IMG/VR virus record: IMGVR_UViG_3300025030_000041
Coordinates: 126,001 to 190,000 of that record
Reading direction: 5' to 3' (one strand)
DNA: 64,000 nt
Source: a virus
How positions within the stretch are numbered: position 1 is the stretch's first letter; each line of letters starts with the position of its first letter. Positions 4,624 through 54,359 of the stretch are shown here, piece by piece. Made by a program: the position numbers and the translations under genes. The notes beneath the pieces were generated by a model, which saw nothing but the letters and a program-made list of their open reading frames with translations, made no database searches and had not been told where the DNA came from.

Positions 4624-6585
4624 TTGCGTGATTTTTTAAAAGATGGAAATTTTACATCTATCAAGTTATCAGATAGTGAGAGTAAAATTAAAACTGATCC
4701 AAAAACAGGAGAGGTTATATCTCAGTCTTCCTCTTTTATTTGGACATCTGATAAAATAAATGATATTCTTCAAAAATATAATGACGGTTTAGTTGAAATT
4801 AAAGGGATGTCAAATAGTCCTTTTTTTACTGGAGATATAGAATTGCGCCGAGGAAATATATTGTTTGAGTATACTCCATATGAATTAAATGAAATTAGAA
4901 AATGTAGAGAAGATATATTATATTTTGCAGATACATACTGTAAACTAATGACTGACAATGGGTATGAATTAATAAAAACTGCACCACATCAAAGAGAAGT
5001 ATTACTAAATTATGTAAATAATAAATTTACAATTAGTATGCAATCTAGACAATCATTTAAGTCTACTACTGCTAGTATATTTATAGCATGGGTTACATGT
5101 TTTTCTTATGATAAGAATGTATTAATGATTGCTGATGTTAGTGAAACCACTAAAGAAATAATAGATAAGTTCTGGAATATTTATCGTACTTTGCCATTTT
5201 TTATAAAACCTGGTGTAATAAATGATTCAGTTATGTCAAAGAAATTTGATAATTTATGTAGAATATTTGGCAGAAATACTAGTACTAAAAGTGCTATTGG
5301 AGTAACTGCATCTATTGTTTATATTGATGAGTTTGCTCATATTGAGCCGTCGTTTATAGAAAAATTCTATAAATCTGTTTACCCAACTATTAGTTCTAAG
5401 CCTGATGGAAAAGTTATAATAACATCTACTCCAAATGGTCCAAATAAATTTTATGAATTATACTTAGGAGCATTAGATAAACAAAATGAATATGTTCCAA
5501 TTAGAGTAGACTGGTGGCAAATACCAGGAAGAGACGAAAAATGGAAAAATCAAGAAATTGCTAACTTAGGTAATATAGAGTCATTTAATCAAGAATATGG
5601 TTTACAGTTTTTTTCGAGCGACTCATTATTATTAACTTCAGATAATATAAAGAAAATAAACAACTTAAAAACTTCATTTATACATAAATCAATATTTAAT
5701 TTTGAAGATGAAGAGATAACATATACTGAATTAAAATGGCATCCTAATTTTAAATTAGATAATTTAAAAAATGATAAACATTGTTATGTATTTACTGTAG
5801 ATACTGCTGACGGTATAGAAAACGATTATTCTGTTATTAATATATGGAAATTAACAACTATTCCTTTTAAATCATTATTTAAAAATAGAGATCTATTTAG
5901 AAATGAAATAGATTGCTTTGGATTAGTACAAGTTGGAGTATTTAGAAGTAATACAACTGATATTAATCAATTTAGCCGTATATTAGAAATATTATCATTT
6001 AAAGTATTTAATACTGATCATGTAAGAATAATACTTGAAATGAATCATAAGGGTGACCTATTAGTTAATAAATTGGAAAATAATAATTCTTATTGGCCAG
6101 GATTATTATTATACAGCAAGCACTCTAATGAATCTAAAATATTAAAACCTGGTATAAAAACTACATCATCTAATAAAGTCAGGTTTTGTGAAAGATTAAA
6201 TTATTTTATAACGTTAGATAAAATAATGCCGACTGACTCTGAAACTATTAAAGAATTAAATGCATTTGGTAAAACTAAAAACGGGTCATATAGAGGACAA
6301 AATGGTCATGACGATTTAAGTATGAGCTGTGTATTTTTAAGTGCATTTTATGAAAGTTCATTATTTATAGAATTAGCAAGTGAAAGCTACGATTTAATAC
6401 AAAATGTTGAATATAAGAAAAAATTTGAAAATGAAATATTAAAATATAATACTGAACGCGAATATAGTACTAATTCTGTAAATTTCAATTCATTAAACCA
6501 AATAAATAATCTTTTTAATAATGTTAATAATGGAAATTACTTACCACATTCATTGATAAATAGTGAAGACCCTTATAAAATTTAA
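4624..6585 (+). CDS. terL: Terminase large subunit, T4 gp17-like
   Basis: This is the ATP-driven DNA-packaging motor and headful nuclease that docks on the portal. Characteristic stretches are CREDILYFADTYC (T4 gp17 has CRDDIVYFAETYC), a Walker A-like SRQSFKSTT (about residue 145), Walker B IVYIDEFAHI (about 230), the coupling motif ITSTPNGPNKFYE, the first nuclease aspartate in FTVDTADGIENDYS (about 393) and the later acidic pair in GQNGHDDLSMS (about 565). The Walker A lysine is kept although the preceding glycine is F. At 653 residues the length is normal. The start is unusual: the frame opens after the LRR stop and contains only TTG 4624 before the homologous region, and the first ATG is at 4807 (residue 62). 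Confidence 0.93.
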   Translation: MRDFLKDGNFTSIKLSDSESKIKTDPKTGEVISQSSSFIWTSDKINDILQKYNDGLVEIKGMSNSPFFTGDIELRRGNILFEYTPYELNEIRKCREDILYFADTYCKLMTDNGYELIKTAPHQREVLLNYVNNKFTISMQSRQSFKSTTASIFIAWVTCFSYDKNVLMIADVSETTKEIIDKFWNIYRTLPFFIKPGVINDSVMSKKFDNLCRIFGRNTSTKSAIGVTASIVYIDEFAHIEPSFIEKFYKSVYPTISSKPDGKVIITSTPNGPNKFYELYLGALDKQNEYVPIRVDWWQIPGRDEKWKNQEIANLGNIESFNQEYGLQFFSSDSLLLTSDNIKKINNLKTSFIHKSIFNFEDEEITYTELKWHPNFKLDNLKNDKHCYVFTVDTADGIENDYSVINIWKLTTIPFKSLFKNRDLFRNEIDCFGLVQVGVFRSNTTDINQFSRILEILSFKVFNTDHVRIILEMNHKGDLLVNKLENNNSYWPGLLLYSKHSNESKILKPGIKTTSSNKVRFCERLNYFITLDKIMPTDSETIKELNAFGKTKNGSYRGQNGHDDLSMSCVFLSAFYESSLFIELASESYDLIQNVEYKKKFENEILKYNTEREYSTNSVNFNSLNQINNLFNNVNNGNYLPHSLINSEDPYKI

Positions 6586-15499: not shown

Positions 15500-16393
15500 T
15501 TAACTATAAACTTTTCCTTTTACATCAATTAATTCTCTTACTTCTTTTTGTGTAAATTTCTTTATATTATTATCAATCCAAACATTTCCTTTAACTATTT
15601 CAGGGGCTCCGTCAAGACTAGTTAGCATATTGTTATTACACATAAAACTTTCATTAATTATTCGTGGAGTTCCAATTAAATTAGTTAATATATTATAAGC
15701 ACACTTAAAGTATCTACTGACTATATTAGGGCCGCCTTCAAGACTAGTTAAGTTATTATTAGAACAATCAAAATATCCATTAACTGCAGTAGGACATCCT
15801 TCTAGACTAGTTAGTTTATTAGTATTACAATCAACATATCCATTAATCAATTTAGGCAAGTTGACTAGACTAGTTAAGTTATTATAAGAACAACTAAACG
15901 CACCACTTACTGTTTTTGGACCTCCTTCAAGACTAGTTAAGTTATTATTAGAACAATCAAAATATCCATTAACTGTAACAGGAGCTCCTTCAAGACTAGT
16001 TAAATTATTAGCATAACAATAAAAATTTCCATTCACTATAGTAGGAGATCCGTCTAAACTAGTTAAGGCATTATCAGAACAATCAAAAAAACCATCTATT
16101 TCATCTATACTTAATACTCTTAAATCATTTATACCTTTCACTCTAACATTACCTATTATTACTTTAATATTTTTAAAGTCTTCTATATTAGTATGCCCTA
16201 TACTAATAGCTTCATTAATAGGTTTCACTACAAATATTTGGTCTTTGGTATAACCTTTATTAAGGTAAGGAATAAGTAAGTCATCCCATCTTTCTTTTAG
16301 CCTTCTAGGTATAAATATATCTTTAGCGCTAAGCTTAGGAGTAGGGCTTTCTTCTTCAGATATAAATTGTTCAAATAGTTTTATATGTTTCAT
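15500..16393 (-). CDS. LRR family protein 3, longest member
   Basis: At 297 residues this is the longest paralogue: MKHIKLFEQFISEEESPTP, the conserved KLSAKDIFIPRRLKERWDDL domain, about eight 21-residue LRR units (for example LTSLEGGPKTVSGAFSCSYN), and the tail KKFTQKEVRELIDVKG. It overlaps the upstream gene by one base and ends 4 bases before the next gene, so it is cotranscribed with virion genes and has no promoter of its own that I can see. Confidence 0.85.
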   Translation of the reverse strand: MKHIKLFEQFISEEESPTPKLSAKDIFIPRRLKERWDDLLIPYLNKGYTKDQIFVVKPINEAISIGHTNIEDFKNIKVIIGNVRVKGINDLRVLSIDEIDGFFDCSDNALTSLDGSPTIVNGNFYCYANNLTSLEGAPVTVNGYFDCSNNNLTSLEGGPKTVSGAFSCSYNNLTSLVNLPKLINGYVDCNTNKLTSLEGCPTAVNGYFDCSNNNLTSLEGGPNIVSRYFKCAYNILTNLIGTPRIINESFMCNNNMLTSLDGAPEIVKGNVWIDNNIKKFTQKEVRELIDVKGKVYS

Positions 16394-24197: not shown

Positions 24198-24833
24198 TTA
24201 AACATAAACCTTTCCTTTTACATCAATTACTTCTCTTACTTCTTTTTCTGTAAATTTCTTTGTATTATTAGAACAATCAAACCATCCATTAATTGTAGTA
24301 GGAGCTCCTTCAAGACTAGTTAGTTTATTCGTATTACAATCAAAATATCCATTAAATGTAGCAGGAGCTCCTTCAAGACTAGTTATATTATTAATAAAAC
24401 AATAATAACTTCCCTTAGCTATAGTAGGACCCCCTTCAAGACTATTTAACTTATTATTAGAACAATAAAAACCTCCATTAACTGTAGTAGGAGATCCTTC
24501 AAGACTAGTTAAACTATTATTAGAACAATAAAAAAAACCAGTTACTTCGTCTATATCTAGCCCACTCAAATAAGTTATTTCATGTATTCTAACGTTACCT
24601 ATTATAACTTTAATATTCTTAAAGTCTTCTATATTATTTTTAGTTATAAGCATATCTTTATTAAAAGGTTTAGCGACAAATATTTGTTCTTTAGTATAAC
24701 CTTTATTTAGGTAAGGAAGTAACAGGTCATCCCAACGTTCTTTAAGTCTTCTAGGTATAAATATATCTTTAGCACTAAGTTTAGGAGTTTCTTCTTCAGA
24801 TATAAACTGCTCAAAAAGTTTTATATGTTTCAT
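24198..24833 (-). CDS. LRR family protein 6
   Basis: The 211-residue member has MKHIKLFEQFISEEETP, the conserved domain, five LRR units including one divergent unit (LNSLEGGPTIAKGSYYCFIN), and the tail KKFTEKEVREVIDVKGKVYV. Its start overlaps the upstream gene stop by 4 bases (ATGA-type junction), so it is translationally coupled. Confidence 0.85.
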   Translation of the reverse strand: MKHIKLFEQFISEEETPKLSAKDIFIPRRLKERWDDLLLPYLNKGYTKEQIFVAKPFNKDMLITKNNIEDFKNIKVIIGNVRIHEITYLSGLDIDEVTGFFYCSNNSLTSLEGSPTTVNGGFYCSNNKLNSLEGGPTIAKGSYYCFINNITSLEGAPATFNGYFDCNTNKLTSLEGAPTTINGWFDCSNNTKKFTEKEVREVIDVKGKVYV

Positions 24834-35735: not shown

Positions 35736-38564
35736 TTAAAAGCTTGGAATAAACCCTGTTGACGAACTTGATAGTTGGCCATTAGCTCTAGTAATAGTGA
35801 TTCTATTAACTATTTTATGTAGAGCTCTAGTAAAGTTTACACTAATATCTATTATACCAGTATTAGTTTCAATTACTTCAGACGTATTATTTGAAGCATC
35901 CATTATTACTTCAAATGAAGTTAATCCTCCTGCAGCTTTAACCGCTTCTAAATAGTTTTCTACAATTGTTCTTATTCTTAATCTTGTAATTTCATCATTA
36001 AAATCAAATAAGAAGTTGAATAATATTCTTTCAATATCATTTTCAATTGTAATTAAGCTATCTCTAACATGTAGGTTATTTAATGCAGATTGGATTTTTT
36101 GGTATCCTGTGTTATTACTCATTAACATAATACCAAATCCTCTTTTTCTTGTAATTAGATTAAATCCTATAGGTTCAAGATAGTCTCTATCAGTTTTAGT
36201 TAATTCATATTCTATACCAATTACTTCCGAATCGCTTATTATACCTCTTTTTGCGGCTGTTGCAGTAAATGGATTTCCTCCAGTAAATTTACGCATAAAC
36301 AAATTCGCTACATACATAGCTGGAGGTATTAACTTATTTTGTCCAGCCTCTCTTATGATTAACCACGGCATACAATATGCGGCAAACGTAGACATATTAA
36401 TACCACCAATTTGCTCATCTACTAAGTTAAAAGTAAACGAAGGGTTTAATGATAAATCTCCGCCTTGTGATATATATTGTGAACTTACTAATCCCGTTGT
36501 TGAATCAATAAAAGATGGGTCATTTGATTTTTCAAATTGTTCAAATGATGGAGCATTCACAAATGCAATCATTCGTTGATGCATTGCTGCAAGTTTAATT
36601 AAAGGATTTTTACTTGCTCCACTTATATCGCCTGACCAACAATCAATTAAATATCTAACATTAACGATTTCTCGTTCCGCAAGAGTAGATGGAATATTAG
36701 TACTATCAAATAAGTAATTTAGAATAGTATTTTGATTAATTCCATTAGCCAAATGCCTATTAATATCTAATTTAAATTCTTTAAGAGTTTGTCCTTTAAT
36801 TTCAGTAATAAATGTATCAACTCCTTTAATTGAAGTAACTGATACTGGACTTCCATTTACTAAAATTTCATCTTTACATTTTACAGTTAAATATGTAGTA
36901 GTAACTAAAGGAGATCCACTATCAACTTTAGTTTCTTTAACTGATAAAATTCTAGTAAGTCGAGGTCTTCCTTCAGATACTGACGCTCTTAAAAATTGTC
37001 CAGGTTTTAAAAATTCTGAAGTATTAGTTGAGTTATCATATGTTGTAGTATTACCTTGTACTATTTTTTTAACAATAACAACTTCAGTTGGACTAACTTG
37101 AGAATCAACATTAAAATCTAAAGAAAATTCAGTTTGAGATGTATTAAATTCTATAACTGTATCTGGCCCGGATGTATATGTTAATATATCGCTTTGATTT
37201 AATAAAGTTATATCGTCATATGCTTTAATTGTAATATATTTTAAATTACCATTTCCAGTATCTACAAATGATCCTTCAACTTTAATATATTTAACAGTTG
37301 GTGAAGGAAGATTATCAGTATTTATATCACCCGTTTTAATAAATCCATCAAAATATGATTTATAAAGGGGAGTTCCTTCATATGCTCGTACTACTTTAGT
37401 AGTTCCACTTACATATGCGGTGTTACTAGTAATAGTACCAGGAACTGTATTTGTTCCATCAGCATCATCTTGATATAATAAAATACTAGATACTGGCTTT
37501 TTATAAGAAATAACATCTATTAATTTAGTACCGTAATCATCAGCATCTTTAGTTAATTCAGAATATCCATGACCAATTAAATCTAACCTATGTGACTCAA
37601 TACTTAAATCTGTAAAAGTATCATTAGTTAAATCAATTAGCTCAGTTTTTTCTGTATCTATTGCACAAAGCACTTCAGTTATAGGAAATAAATTATTAAC
37701 TAATCTTGAAATATCAATTATTCTACCTCCTCTATCTTTAAAATCAGGAATCATACACCCTTGAGTTCTTCCAAGAACTTTTATTTCTTTAAGTTGTAAA
37801 AACTCATTAATTAAAGACTTTTTAAGTCCTTCTGCTGTAAAATATTTACCAAATACTGCGTCTTTAGATAAAGATATATAGTCATTATAAGTACCTTCTA
37901 TTATAAGAACATCAACAAAATAATCACTTATATAATCTTTAGGATGTATAAAAGATGGAACTGGAATTTGGTCAGCTAATGAGCCATACCACTCTTGAAC
38001 AGTTATGTCATACCCTAAAATTTCAGCTTTTTTAGTAAAAATAGTAACAGGTTTTTTACCTAAATTAGAGAATGATAATATTTTGTTTACCTCAGATGTT
38101 CCAGTTAAGCCAGACGCATTATTTTTAACCTTAGTAAGTTGTTTATCACTTGCAAACCAAAGTTTTTGTGTATTGAAAAATTTAGAGTATCCATCTTGAG
38201 CTGGTAAACTTATAGTATTTCCAGTAGATACTTCAGTATTAAATGTAGTAAAATACGCCTTATCTAGTGTATCATCAATAGGGCCAACGTTCATTACATA
38301 TACTGGGCCTTCTTTAAGAGCTATCTCAATTGCTCTATGAAAAAAACATCCTCTATTTTCTAAATAAGGATCTTTATCACCAAAAACTGAATTTCTAGTT
38401 CTTAAATCTGGTATAAATACTATACTATTAATTGGGCCTTTGCGGCTATTTCCAATTATTAATCTGCCAGTAGTAATAGGCAAAGAAATATTAGAACTTT
38501 GGTCTATTTCGATTTGGTATACACCAGATGATTTAAATTGTTGTAAATTTAATGTTTCAGCCAT
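35736..38564 (-). CDS. 18: Contractile tail sheath protein, T4 gp18-like
   Basis: At 942 residues this is longer than T4 gp18 (659). The N-terminus SSGVYQIEIDQSSNISLPIT followed by GRLIIGNSRKGPIN is the usual start of phage sheath subunits. The C-terminal domain (GFNLITRKRGFGIMLMSNNT, NNLHVRDSLITIENDIERIL and FNFLFDFND, ISVNFTRALHKIVNRITITR) is the conserved sheath polymerisation domain. The extra length lies in the middle (about residues 330-620, Thr/Ser-rich beta domains), likely exposed on the tail surface. A late-promoter-like motif lies 24 bases before the ATG. Confidence 0.92.
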   Translation of the reverse strand: MAETLNLQQFKSSGVYQIEIDQSSNISLPITTGRLIIGNSRKGPINSIVFIPDLRTRNSVFGDKDPYLENRGCFFHRAIEIALKEGPVYVMNVGPIDDTLDKAYFTTFNTEVSTGNTISLPAQDGYSKFFNTQKLWFASDKQLTKVKNNASGLTGTSEVNKILSFSNLGKKPVTIFTKKAEILGYDITVQEWYGSLADQIPVPSFIHPKDYISDYFVDVLIIEGTYNDYISLSKDAVFGKYFTAEGLKKSLINEFLQLKEIKVLGRTQGCMIPDFKDRGGRIIDISRLVNNLFPITEVLCAIDTEKTELIDLTNDTFTDLSIESHRLDLIGHGYSELTKDADDYGTKLIDVISYKKPVSSILLYQDDADGTNTVPGTITSNTAYVSGTTKVVRAYEGTPLYKSYFDGFIKTGDINTDNLPSPTVKYIKVEGSFVDTGNGNLKYITIKAYDDITLLNQSDILTYTSGPDTVIEFNTSQTEFSLDFNVDSQVSPTEVVIVKKIVQGNTTTYDNSTNTSEFLKPGQFLRASVSEGRPRLTRILSVKETKVDSGSPLVTTTYLTVKCKDEILVNGSPVSVTSIKGVDTFITEIKGQTLKEFKLDINRHLANGINQNTILNYLFDSTNIPSTLAEREIVNVRYLIDCWSGDISGASKNPLIKLAAMHQRMIAFVNAPSFEQFEKSNDPSFIDSTTGLVSSQYISQGGDLSLNPSFTFNLVDEQIGGINMSTFAAYCMPWLIIREAGQNKLIPPAMYVANLFMRKFTGGNPFTATAAKRGIISDSEVIGIEYELTKTDRDYLEPIGFNLITRKRGFGIMLMSNNTGYQKIQSALNNLHVRDSLITIENDIERILFNFLFDFNDEITRLRIRTIVENYLEAVKAAGGLTSFEVIMDASNNTSEVIETNTGIIDISVNFTRALHKIVNRITITRANGQLSSSSTGFIPSF

Positions 38565-38647: not shown

Positions 38648-39094
38648 TTAAGTATAGACATCACCTTTTACATCAATTAATTTTCGTACTTCTTCTTCTG
38701 TAAATTTCTTCTTATTATTATTACTAAAAAAATTTCCATTAACTATTTTAGGAGCGCCTTCTAGACTAATTAAGTTATTATAAGAACAACTAAAATATCC
38801 AACTACTTCTTCTATATTTAGCTCTCTTAAATCGTTTATTTCCTTTATTTTAGCATTACCTATTAAAACCGTAATATTCTTAAAATCTTTCATATTATCT
38901 TTAGTTATAATAAAAGTGTCATTAATGGGTTTCACTACAAATATTTGTTCTTTGGTATAACCTTTATTAAGGTAAGGAAGTAATAAGTCATCCCATCTTT
39001 CTTTAAGCCTCCTAGGTATAAATATATCTTTAGCGCTAAGCTTAGGAGTTTCTTCTTCGGATATAAATTGTTCAAATAGTTTTATGTGTTTCAT
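38648..39094 (-). CDS. LRR family protein 8, shortest member
   Basis: At 148 residues it keeps the leader MKHIKLFEQFISEEETP, the conserved domain and the tail KKFTEEEVRKLIDVKG, but has only one full LRR unit (VVGYFSCSYNNLISLEGAP). It shows that the constant ends are maintained when the repeat array shrinks. Its start is adjacent to the stop of the upstream gene. Confidence 0.83.
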   Translation of the reverse strand: MKHIKLFEQFISEEETPKLSAKDIFIPRRLKERWDDLLLPYLNKGYTKEQIFVVKPINDTFIITKDNMKDFKNITVLIGNAKIKEINDLRELNIEEVVGYFSCSYNNLISLEGAPKIVNGNFFSNNNKKKFTEEEVRKLIDVKGDVYT

Positions 39095-49082: not shown

Positions 49083-49101
49083 GAAAATATTGTATATAAA
49101 A

Positions 49102-49614
49102 ATGGGATATGCTAAATTATATGAAGAGTTTCTTTTTGAAGTATCAGTAGAAGCTGAAGATGTAAAAACAGAAGATTTAATATCAGAAGATAAGTTTAAA
49201 TCTCTAATTACTAAATTAGTTAAACATGAATTAAAAGAAGAACTTGATCCAGAAGAAGAAACTAAAGAAGTTTCTATGGAAGGTTTAACTAAAGAAGAAC
49301 TTGAGAAAGTAAATAAGTTTATTGAAACTTTATGGGTTAATGAAGAACCTAGTAAAAATGAAGTAAATGAAGCTGATTGGTTTGGATTAAAAAGAAAAAA
49401 ATTAGAAGAAAATTTAAATAGTAAAGTAAAAGTATGGGTTCCTAACGCTATGAATAAGCCTACTCAAGAAATTCTTAATAAATTCTGGGAAGATGCTAAA
49501 AACGATAGTTATGACGGACTTCCTAGTATAGGCGAAGATAAAAACTTAATATATAGACCATCCAGTTCAATAAAATGGGGTACAAAACGACATGCTTTTG
49601 GCGGCGGTAAATAA
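49102..49614 (+). CDS. Acidic head-cargo candidate (170 aa)
   Basis: The N-terminus MGYAKLYEEFLFEVSVEAED resembles the targeting-like leader (Y-x-x-F-L-x-E), then a very acidic region (ELDPEEETKEVSMEGL) and a basic C-terminus (SSIKWGTKRHAFGGGK). I take ATG 49102; an ATG four codons upstream is possible. It could be an internal or core protein. It has its own late-type motif. 49615-49743 is AT-rich with palindromic TATA runs and no gene. Confidence 0.5.
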   Translation: MGYAKLYEEFLFEVSVEAEDVKTEDLISEDKFKSLITKLVKHELKEELDPEEETKEVSMEGLTKEELEKVNKFIETLWVNEEPSKNEVNEADWFGLKRKKLEENLNSKVKVWVPNAMNKPTQEILNKFWEDAKNDSYDGLPSIGEDKNLIYRPSSSIKWGTKRHAFGGGK

Positions 49615-49743
49615 TTTTATTTAATTAGACACCAATAAGTTATATAATATATGATATATTTATTTTTATATATCGCATATTTTTATTAATTTTACAGTAC
49701 AATTAGTTCTTTATTATTGTTTAACAATTAAAACTTAGAACTC

Positions 49744-50088
49744 ATGGAAGCATTACTTATAACATTTAATAATGGAGTATTTTCACCATTATTATACGAT
49801 TCTAAAACTAATAAAATGTTAGTTATTATTAATAGAATGTGTTTAGAAAATGATTGTGAATTAATTCTTAATATAGAAGATTTTGAGTTATTAAAGCTTA
49901 CATATAATAAAGAAAATAAATTATACAATGGGCCTGGCATTTATAATAATAAATGCGAAAAAACTAATTATATAAAAGCCAATGATGTAATAGCGTATTT
50001 TACTAGAAAATATAGCGAGATTGGTGAAATGTCTGATGCTAAGTCTACTCAAATTAATATAAATAAGTCTTTACAATTCTTTAATTAA
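49744..50088 (+). CDS. Hypothetical protein (114 aa)
   Basis: The sequence MEALLITFNNGVFSPLLYDS is a small mixed alpha/beta protein with no signal or membrane segment. The family is unknown. It is separated from neighbours by about 130-150 bases on each side, so it may be a single-gene unit. Confidence 0.5.
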   Translation: MEALLITFNNGVFSPLLYDSKTNKMLVIINRMCLENDCELILNIEDFELLKLTYNKENKLYNGPGIYNNKCEKTNYIKANDVIAYFTRKYSEIGEMSDAKSTQININKSLQFFN

Positions 50089-50234: not shown

Positions 50235-52364
50235 ATGAAAAAAATTCTTTTATTTTTAAGTATTGGATATTTATCAATTCAATTTTCAAGTGCTCAGTTT
50301 GCAATAATAAAAACACAAACTAATGCAACATGTGTAGGAGATAGTAATGGTACAGCAAAAGTTTCAGTAAGTAGACGAACCCCTCCATATACTTACTCTT
50401 GGTCTAAAGACGGATCAACCGATGTTATTGGAATATCTGATAGTCTAAGTGGGTTAACTGCAGGGTCTTATAATTGCAATATTACAGACGTTGAGGGATT
50501 CCAAACTACCATCTCATTTACTATTACTTATAAAAGTCGTATTATTAGTACAACTGGGGGGTTTGGGTGTGAGACCATACTTCCATCATGTAGTTCTAGT
50601 AATACCGGGTCAGCATGTATACAAGTTTGGCAAGGAATTCCTCCATATACCTATTCTTGGAATACTACTCCTATACAGACAACTGAGACGGCCATTAATC
50701 TTTCCGAAGGATATTACACATATAGTATTACAGATTCACTTGGATGTTCAGATACTAATTCTTTTTATTTACCCTCAGCTATTCCTAACTTCAATCTTTC
50801 ATTCGCGGCAAGCCCACAAACTGGAGTATCACCTCTTGCTGTAGCTTTTAATAATAATACACCAAATATTGATAATTATACTTTTAAATGGTTTTTTGGT
50901 GATGGAAACTCTATTGATGATAGCAGTAGTACAGTATTTCATACATATCAATACTCAGGTAGCTATGATATAGCGCTAATTGCAATTGATAAAAATACTG
51001 GGTGTAGCGACACTCTTTTAAAAAATGGATTTATTTATACAACTGGAGCAGGATGTACACATAGCGCAACAATTACTACACTAAGTTCTACTACAGCGTG
51101 CCAAGGAGATACTATAATTCTTTCTGCAAATATAGACACATCTTTTACTTATAAATGGAATATAAACGGCACGGCTATTGATGGAGAAACTAATAATATA
51201 TTAAAAGCTACTCAAACTGGATATTATTCCGTAACTGTTTTAAAAGATAATTGTCCAGTTACCTCAAATGCTACACCAGTAACATTTAAAAATGGGCCAC
51301 CTATTCCTACTATTACTTCGGTAGGAACAATTGAGCCATGTATAGGTGGAGCAGTTACATTATCAGTTATGCCTATATATGGAATAAACTATTTATGGAA
51401 TACTGGAGATACTACTAATTCTATAACTACACATAATACTGGAATTTATTCAGTATCATTAGTAGATACTATATCAGGGTGTAGTAAAATGTCTGATATA
51501 TATAGACTTAGCACAACTCTATCTATACAAGATATTTGTATGGTAACATCAAATGATTCTTCAACTCATAATATTATTATTTGGGAAAAACCCATATCTA
51601 CTAATATAGATAGCTTTATAATTTATAGAGAAGTTGTAACGAATGTATATAATAAAATTGCAAGTATTAATTACAATTCATTAAGTGAATATCATGATTA
51701 TGACGCTAATCCAAATGTAACATCGTATAAGTATAAAATTGAAGTCATTGATACATGTGGCTCAGTGAGCCAATTAAGTAATTTTCATAACAGTATTCAT
51801 TTACAAAATTTAGGTAATGGTAATTTTCAGTGGACTCTATATAATATAGAAAATTCTATTAATCCTATCCAGTATTATATAATGTATCGTGACAATTATA
51901 GAAATGGCAGTTTTTTGCCAATAAGTAGTACTATTCCATCTGGAAATTCAACGTATACAGACTTAGAGTATTCAATGTATCCAGATGCTAAGTATAGAGT
52001 CGCAGCTTTATGGAATATTTCATGTATTCCTACTAAAAAAACTAATGAAATACCTCCAAATACTACGTATTCTAATATAAAAAATCAGGAAAGTATACCC
52101 ACTGGAATTTCATTTAATAATATAGATTTAAGTATCTCAGCTTACCCTAACCCTACAAATAATATAGTAAATATAGAAGGATTAGGACAGATTAAAAAAG
52201 GATCAATACAAATTATTAATATTACTGGACAAATCCTTTACACTGAGCATATTTCAAGCACTCCTAATATAAAACAAATAGATATTAGTAGTTACTATAA
52301 TGGATTTTATACTATAGTTATAGAAAATCATGGAATTAAAACCTATAAAAAAATAAAAAAATAA
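50235..52364 (+). CDS. Secreted SprB/PKD-repeat protein with T9SS type A sorting domain
   Basis: The 709-residue protein begins with a signal peptide (MKKILLFLSIGYLSIQFSSA, cleavage after SSA). Two SprB-like repeats follow (CVGDSNGTAKVSVSRRTPPY and a second with SEGYYTYSITDSLGC), then a PKD domain (FKWFFGDGNSIDDSSS...FHTYQYSGSYDIALIAID). Ig-like and fibronectin-like segments lead to the C-terminal sorting domain (ISAYPNPTNNIVNIEGLGQI, GFYTIVIENHGIKTYKKIKK). Type A domains direct outer-membrane export and cell-surface attachment by the Bacteroidota T9SS. Cysteine pairs support an exported protein. In a phage this predicts decoration of the infected cell surface, perhaps against superinfection or for adhesion (inference). 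Confidence 0.9.
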   Translation: MKKILLFLSIGYLSIQFSSAQFAIIKTQTNATCVGDSNGTAKVSVSRRTPPYTYSWSKDGSTDVIGISDSLSGLTAGSYNCNITDVEGFQTTISFTITYKSRIISTTGGFGCETILPSCSSSNTGSACIQVWQGIPPYTYSWNTTPIQTTETAINLSEGYYTYSITDSLGCSDTNSFYLPSAIPNFNLSFAASPQTGVSPLAVAFNNNTPNIDNYTFKWFFGDGNSIDDSSSTVFHTYQYSGSYDIALIAIDKNTGCSDTLLKNGFIYTTGAGCTHSATITTLSSTTACQGDTIILSANIDTSFTYKWNINGTAIDGETNNILKATQTGYYSVTVLKDNCPVTSNATPVTFKNGPPIPTITSVGTIEPCIGGAVTLSVMPIYGINYLWNTGDTTNSITTHNTGIYSVSLVDTISGCSKMSDIYRLSTTLSIQDICMVTSNDSSTHNIIIWEKPISTNIDSFIIYREVVTNVYNKIASINYNSLSEYHDYDANPNVTSYKYKIEVIDTCGSVSQLSNFHNSIHLQNLGNGNFQWTLYNIENSINPIQYYIMYRDNYRNGSFLPISSTIPSGNSTYTDLEYSMYPDAKYRVAALWNISCIPTKKTNEIPPNTTYSNIKNQESIPTGISFNNIDLSISAYPNPTNNIVNIEGLGQIKKGSIQIINITGQILYTEHISSTPNIKQIDISSYYNGFYTIVIENHGIKTYKKIKK

Positions 52365-52410: not shown

Positions 52411-52466
52411 TAATACAAGTATGTATATCAAAAACTTTTCTTATATTTGTATTAAATACTAAGTTT
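52411..52466 (+). promoter_or_regulatory. Promoter-like element (short relative of R1-R3)
   Basis: ATATCAAAAACTTTTCTTAT continues into ATTTGTATTAAATAC, nearly the same as the end of repeats R2/R3. TATATTTG matches the Bacteroidota TAnnTTTG box. A further TACTTTTG occurs at about 52396. It lies 27 bases before the ORF at 52493. Confidence 0.6.
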
Positions 52467-54227: not shown

Positions 54228-54359
54228 GAGTACTGTCATTTATAATTTAGTAGATTGATTATCAATTAATTATATTTACCTGTTATATTTAGTTCAAAAA
54301 TAAAGTACTAAAAATGTTAATATATCAAAAACATTTCTTATTTTTGTATTAAATATAAT
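54228..54359 (+). promoter_or_regulatory. Promoter-like repeat R3
   Basis: This is a near-identical copy of R2 over 132 bases, with the TATTTTTGTATTAAATATAA core. It points rightward, but only leftward genes follow (the baseplate gene ending at 54470), so it seems stranded without a cassette downstream. 54360-54469 holds no gene I can see. Confidence 0.55.

Follow-up and report, generated by a model that had tools for sequence, protein, structure and literature searches.

Positions 50235-52364 of the window (the whole analysed stretch of 64,000 nucleotides, which is bases 126001-190000 of a virus record of 246,115 bases) hold a single uninterrupted open frame that encodes 709 aa on the plus strand, so the gene is intact, as the first-pass annotation had described it. 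The frame has the following features, given in window coordinates:

50235..52364, +, T9SS type A substrate gene (ORF call, Pfam, NCBIfam)
50235..50294, +, Sec signal-peptide-like start, residues 1-20, SSA|Q (read by eye; hydropathy)
50313..50408, +, SprB repeat 1 (Pfam 39-44 bits, cut-off 28)
50583..50666, +, SprB-like repeat 2 (21 bits, below the cut-off by itself)
50793..50993, +, PKD domain, residues 187-253 (Pfam 34 bits, cut-off 23.5)
51519..52070, +, FN3-like tandem, approximately residues 429-612, common to surface proteins of the putative host order (fold model, moderate confidence)
52143..52355, +, T9SS type A sorting domain with GxY and KxxxK motifs (Pfam, NCBIfam, solved-domain relatives, model)

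The N-terminus, MKKILLFLSIGYLSIQFSSA|Q, has by eye the look of a typical Sec signal peptide. The PKD domain named on first pass was borne out by its Pfam score, and the SprB-like repeats were borne out in part, with one copy over the cut-off and the other below it when taken alone. No Pfam family was assigned to the region ahead of the sorting domain. Modelling of the entire chain gave a poor structure (mean pLDDT 43), and we used a model of the C-terminal module instead, which resembles tandem FN3 domains; whole-chain TM-scores were low, and we therefore claim the fold class alone for the FN3-like region.

The type A sorting domain that had been proposed for the C-terminus exceeded the cut-offs of both profile collections. 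Por_Secre_tail (Pfam) matched the extreme C-terminus with an E value of 5e-11 and 43 bits (cut-off 27), and TIGR04183 (NCBIfam) matched with 29 bits (cut-off 23). The model of the domain has seven strands at pLDDT values of approximately 75-86 and an Ig-like fold, and its profile relatives include solved T9SS sorting domains. The most conserved elements within the last 22 residues of T9SS signals are PxGxYVV and KxxxK (PMC5445135), and the GxY and KxxxK motifs are present in the last ~22 residues here as NGFYTIVIE and KTYKK. A loose signature ([YFI]PNP...GxY...KxxxK at the end) was matched by this ORF alone among the 295 in the genome and by 3 of 200,000 shuffled versions of the final 89 residues. 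A profile search found no second T9SS sorting domain in the 246-kb record; no CHU_C (type B) match was found in it either, and the protein does not fall among the SprB adhesins of type B. There is good support for reading the ORF as a true phage gene that encodes a T9SS type A substrate.

Phage flanks, regulatory motifs and genome

The ORF is bordered on both sides by sequences that recur elsewhere in the same record:

49090..49614, +, upstream phage gene with a paralogue at record 5994-6557 (70% protein identity)
49633..49779, +, left phage-specific repeat, 82% identical to record 5834-5980 on the other strand, 455 nt upstream of the ORF
49744..50088, +, upstream phage gene with a distant paralogue at record 5519-5869 (28% protein identity)
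52424..52458 (within 52417-52463), +, right-hand copy of an early-promoter-like repeat, 60 nt past the stop codon

None of the neighbours of the 709-aa gene had a family match. The GC3 of the gene is 0.151 against a phage mean of 0.144, and its codon usage deviates somewhat from the norm (by cross-entropy it ranks 64th of 69 large genes). The first-pass annotation had named an assembly chimera with host DNA at approximately 50 kb as the circumstance that would undo its reading. A search for an independent contig found none over the gene start or the junctions, which leaves room for such a chimera. However, phage-specific repeats flank the ORF at distances of less than 0.5 kb, GC3 is phage-like, and T9SS-tagged genes recur in related giant phages, as described below. 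The same phage is also represented in another record by a fragment of 99.98% identity, although that fragment maps to another region of its genome. We therefore reject the chimera, which is improbable in the extreme. The same flanking repeats and the recurrence of tagged genes uphold the earlier view of a phage gene for a protein of the T9SS-exported type.

Two kinds of promoter-like motif were found in the record. The repeat TTAATATATCAAAA...TTTCTTATTTTTGTATTAAATATAAC is strongly conserved and occurs at 17 record sites upstream of small genes (for example, at window 52417-52463 and near 54339); it is probably the early promoter of the phage. The copy 60 nt past the stop codon appears from its position to be placed to drive the next gene rather than the 709-aa gene. 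The late-promoter-like motif ATAAATAA precedes 40 genes, mostly 12-45 nt from the start codon, among them the tail sheath gene (window 35736-38564). Upstream of the 709-aa gene, neither the early element nor the late motif was found. A generic promoter and terminator scan at the gene performed no better than on shuffled sequences, and no clear terminator was found there. Because both motifs are missing upstream, expression of the 709-aa gene is unsupported and constitutes the weakest step of the mechanism proposed below.

The record encodes a T4-type head protease, a major capsid protein, a DNA polymerase, a ribonucleotide reductase and a contractile tail sheath. Capsid proteins most similar to its own are those of LR756500.1 (38.5%), the Lak phages and other giant uncultured phages; phages of Tenacibaculum, Flavobacterium and Chryseobacterium come next. 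Five genomes of more than 634 kb, which belong to the Mahaphage clade, were all predicted to replicate in Bacteroidetes (PMC7162821). The phage had been called a lytic-type myovirus. The contractile sheath and the T4-like head genes agree with the second half of this description, but the record also contains two integrase-family tyrosine recombinases (record 77209-78156, +, and 233720-234523, -), so that the lytic half is unproven; the recombinases may serve lysogeny or the resolution of genomes. A sister phage, sought via the neighbouring 504-aa gene, was not found.

Approximately 18 paralogous ORFs are scattered between structural genes throughout the record (for example, at window 24198-24833, 15500-16393 and 38648-39094); they start with MKHIKLFEQFISEEETPKLSAKDIFIPRRLKERWDDLL, end with DVKGKVYV and have a variable LRR-like middle. 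Their start resembles a T4 capsid-targeting sequence. At record 124347-124796 (+), a small protein with the signal-peptide-like start MKMKYFLVILVFLFLNLVSYSQ has no family match.

Relatives in Bacteroidota and in other phages

The C-terminal 40% of the protein is 35-55% identical to chromosomal surface proteins from one Bacteroidota order. Using residues 335-709 as the query (E up to 1e-50), we found strong relatives of the C-terminal module in 18 of 36 genomes of that order. In the phylum-wide search, for which the query and threshold differed slightly (residues 429-709, E up to 1e-45), relatives were found in one of 395 genomes, which was the centre genome of the same order. All bacterial relatives examined in context were ordinary chromosomal surface proteins. 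Those of the host order (e.g., PLYN01000005.1 and CANJWH010000029.1) share the C-terminal FN3-like module and the type A domain with the phage protein, whereas the N-terminal halves differ and the bacterial genes often occur several per genome. Homologues were located on the putative host side, while no relative of the whole 709-aa protein was found in other viral contigs (IMG/VR).

In a tree, the phage copy nests among the bacterial relatives on a long branch (0.76). It keeps 33 of the 36 positions conserved at >=90% (0.92, compared with 0.85-1.0 for bacterial members), and the three changes are mild (D-N, V-I and R-K). The long branch together with the kept positions is as expected of a long-held, constrained gene, a reading that involves no formal selection test. 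The gene was apparently taken long ago from the host lineage. SprA is encoded by each of the seven bacterial genomes that were tested and by none of five phages, so the host lineage, which is itself deduced from the 709-aa gene, would supply the T9SS that the phage appears to lack. When the 36 genomes of the presumed host order were searched, without a positive control, for capsid relatives (proviruses), none was found, and the host link therefore depends on the 709-aa gene by itself.

T9SS-tagged genes also occur in relatives of the phage. Por_Secre_tail was matched at E up to 0.01 in 5 of 11 phage relatives, four of them over the cut-off: the giant phages LR756502, LR745206, LR756504 and LR756501 carry type A domains over the cut-off, and LR756500 has a weaker match. 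Type B domains over the cut-off were found in LR756502 (three) and LR745206 (four), and several of the tagged genes in related giant phages have clear signal peptides. Neither a type A nor a type B domain was found in six of the better-known members of the wider group, pT24, PTm1, MA9V-1, MaF61, PAU and Lak-A2. The closest phage analogue to the 709-aa gene is a type B protein of LR756502 with 1670 aa and 14 SprB repeats. A type B motif scan of IMG/VR returned 25 putatively viral contigs; two of the nine type B contigs tested encode a capsid protein related to that of this phage. At LR756501.1 654257-654469, the type A sorting domain is seemingly internal rather than C-terminal. That such genes recur in related giant phages suggests that the strategy is a common one and not an isolated curiosity.

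This recurrence bears on whether the 709-aa gene is a passenger, acquired by chance and of no benefit to the phage. Such an origin would fit a single-copy gene that has no whole-protein relative in other phages and no recognised promoter. It is nevertheless highly unlikely, because the conserved positions were kept despite the long branch, because the gene class recurs, and because GC3 fits the phage, although the nearest host copies also have a low GC3 (0.159).

Mini-proteins of ~105-120 aa that comprise little besides a signal peptide and a type B domain were found in two giant phages and four IMG/VR contigs (LR756502.1 597571-597774; LR745206.1 498975-499202; contigs L081, L095, L099 and L100). 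The three that were tested all match TIGR04131, two of them over the cut-off. Frames of mini-protein length made up 6 of 32 phage matches compared with 3 of ~155 listed bacterial matches (Fisher p 0.001), an excess that we treat as a lead only because the four IMG/VR mini-proteins look interrelated and the samples are unmatched.

Proposed role and known systems

We consider it likely that the protein is an adhesin captured from the Bacteroidota host order and that the type IX secretion system (T9SS) of the host exports it for display on infected cells, where it changes what the surface binds. The reading draws on an intact gene with all address parts, its ancestry in the host order, the retained constraint, the translocon of the host and the recurrence in related phages. 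The lineage of this phage would have captured the gene for an adhesin-type surface protein from the host order. The protein would be made during infection and cross the inner membrane via Sec; its type A sorting domain would then be recognised by the host T9SS, with transfer through SprA and shuttling by PorV. Sec passage, sorting-domain recognition, SprA transfer and PorV shuttling are known biology of the family (PMC12618676, PMC9143113), whereas expression, export and display of the 709-aa protein are predicted here. Once displayed outside the infected cell, the SprB, PKD and FN3 arms may alter what the surface binds. The coating of the infected cell suggested on first pass would follow from what sorting domains of this kind are known to do.

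The benefit to the phage is a guess, since sequence cannot tell a superinfection block from aggregation or altered gliding. The likeliest benefit would be that competing phages are kept out or that cell-cell contact is changed. Exclusion of other phages is attractive because components of the gliding surface machinery are believed to serve as phage receptors in Flavobacterium (PMC7345892).

Another location for the arms would be the virion itself, with Hoc-like Ig-like arms on the head or tail and the sorting domain as a relic of bacterial origin. The SprB region matches PHROG families of Hoc-like head decoration proteins (E 2e-6), and the gene sits between tail genes. Phage particles often bear Ig-like domains. 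However, the PHROG match is limited to the SprB-like stretch, and the protein does not qualify as a member of the Hoc-like family given its export signals, its strand and the missing late motif. Virions assemble in the cytoplasm, from which a Sec signal would remove the protein; the sorting domain still occupies the extreme C-terminus and retains its conserved positions; and the gene lies on the strand opposite the tail genes. A virion protein is therefore unlikely.

The protein could also act on the secretion machine, as an abundant substrate that occupies PorV or the translocon and thereby reduces the display of host proteins that phages use as receptors. All type A domains use one shuttle, PorV (PMC12618676), and phages also encode the nearly cargo-free mini-proteins described above, but the ~600 residues of cargo with recognisable binding-type domains would be needless for a competitor, which makes this role rather unlikely for the 709-aa protein. 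A broader idea, which we put forward tentatively and hold to be doubtful, is that manipulating the host T9SS is a general trait of giant Bacteroidota phages: they would export captured adhesins, and some would in addition make minimal signal-peptide/type B proteins of ~105-120 aa that may occupy shuttles or anchors, masking or jamming the surface machinery that other phages use.

Displayed adhesins remain our preferred reading, and these viruses probably remodel the surface of infected cells. Because the gliding machinery is linked to phage entry in Flavobacterium, this provides a testable idea of how such phages might control access to the host. Phage-encoded T9SS cargo has already been reported (PMC7468147, PMC6949934), and the idea itself is not new. 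Only a small literature deals with viruses that exploit this Bacteroidota-specific secretion system, and to it the gene adds a clear case of the adhesin type from a phage of another and far larger kind.

Bellas et al. 2020 described T9SS cargo in Cryophage and proposed superinfection exclusion (PMC7468147). The Cryophage cargo genes are likewise phage-encoded, carry type A sorting domains and are thought to use the host T9SS, but they lie in variable islands and encode an endoglucanase, a GH39 enzyme and a PA14 protein (PMC7468147), whereas the 709-aa protein, from a T4-like phage of 246 kb, is an SprB/PKD/FN3 adhesin and not an enzyme. A T9SS domain was also noted on the crAss-BACON ORF (PMC6949934), in which carbohydrate-binding-type repeats are likewise joined to a T9SS sorting domain; this ORF differs in having BACON repeats, an unrelated cargo, in crAss-like gut phages. 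SprB of Flavobacterium johnsoniae shares SprB repeats and T9SS export, predicted in our case, with the 709-aa protein. However, SprB is ~669 kDa, carries a sorting domain of type B and has a dedicated shuttle, SprF (PMC9143113); because the phage protein is small and of type A, a role in gliding is not implied.
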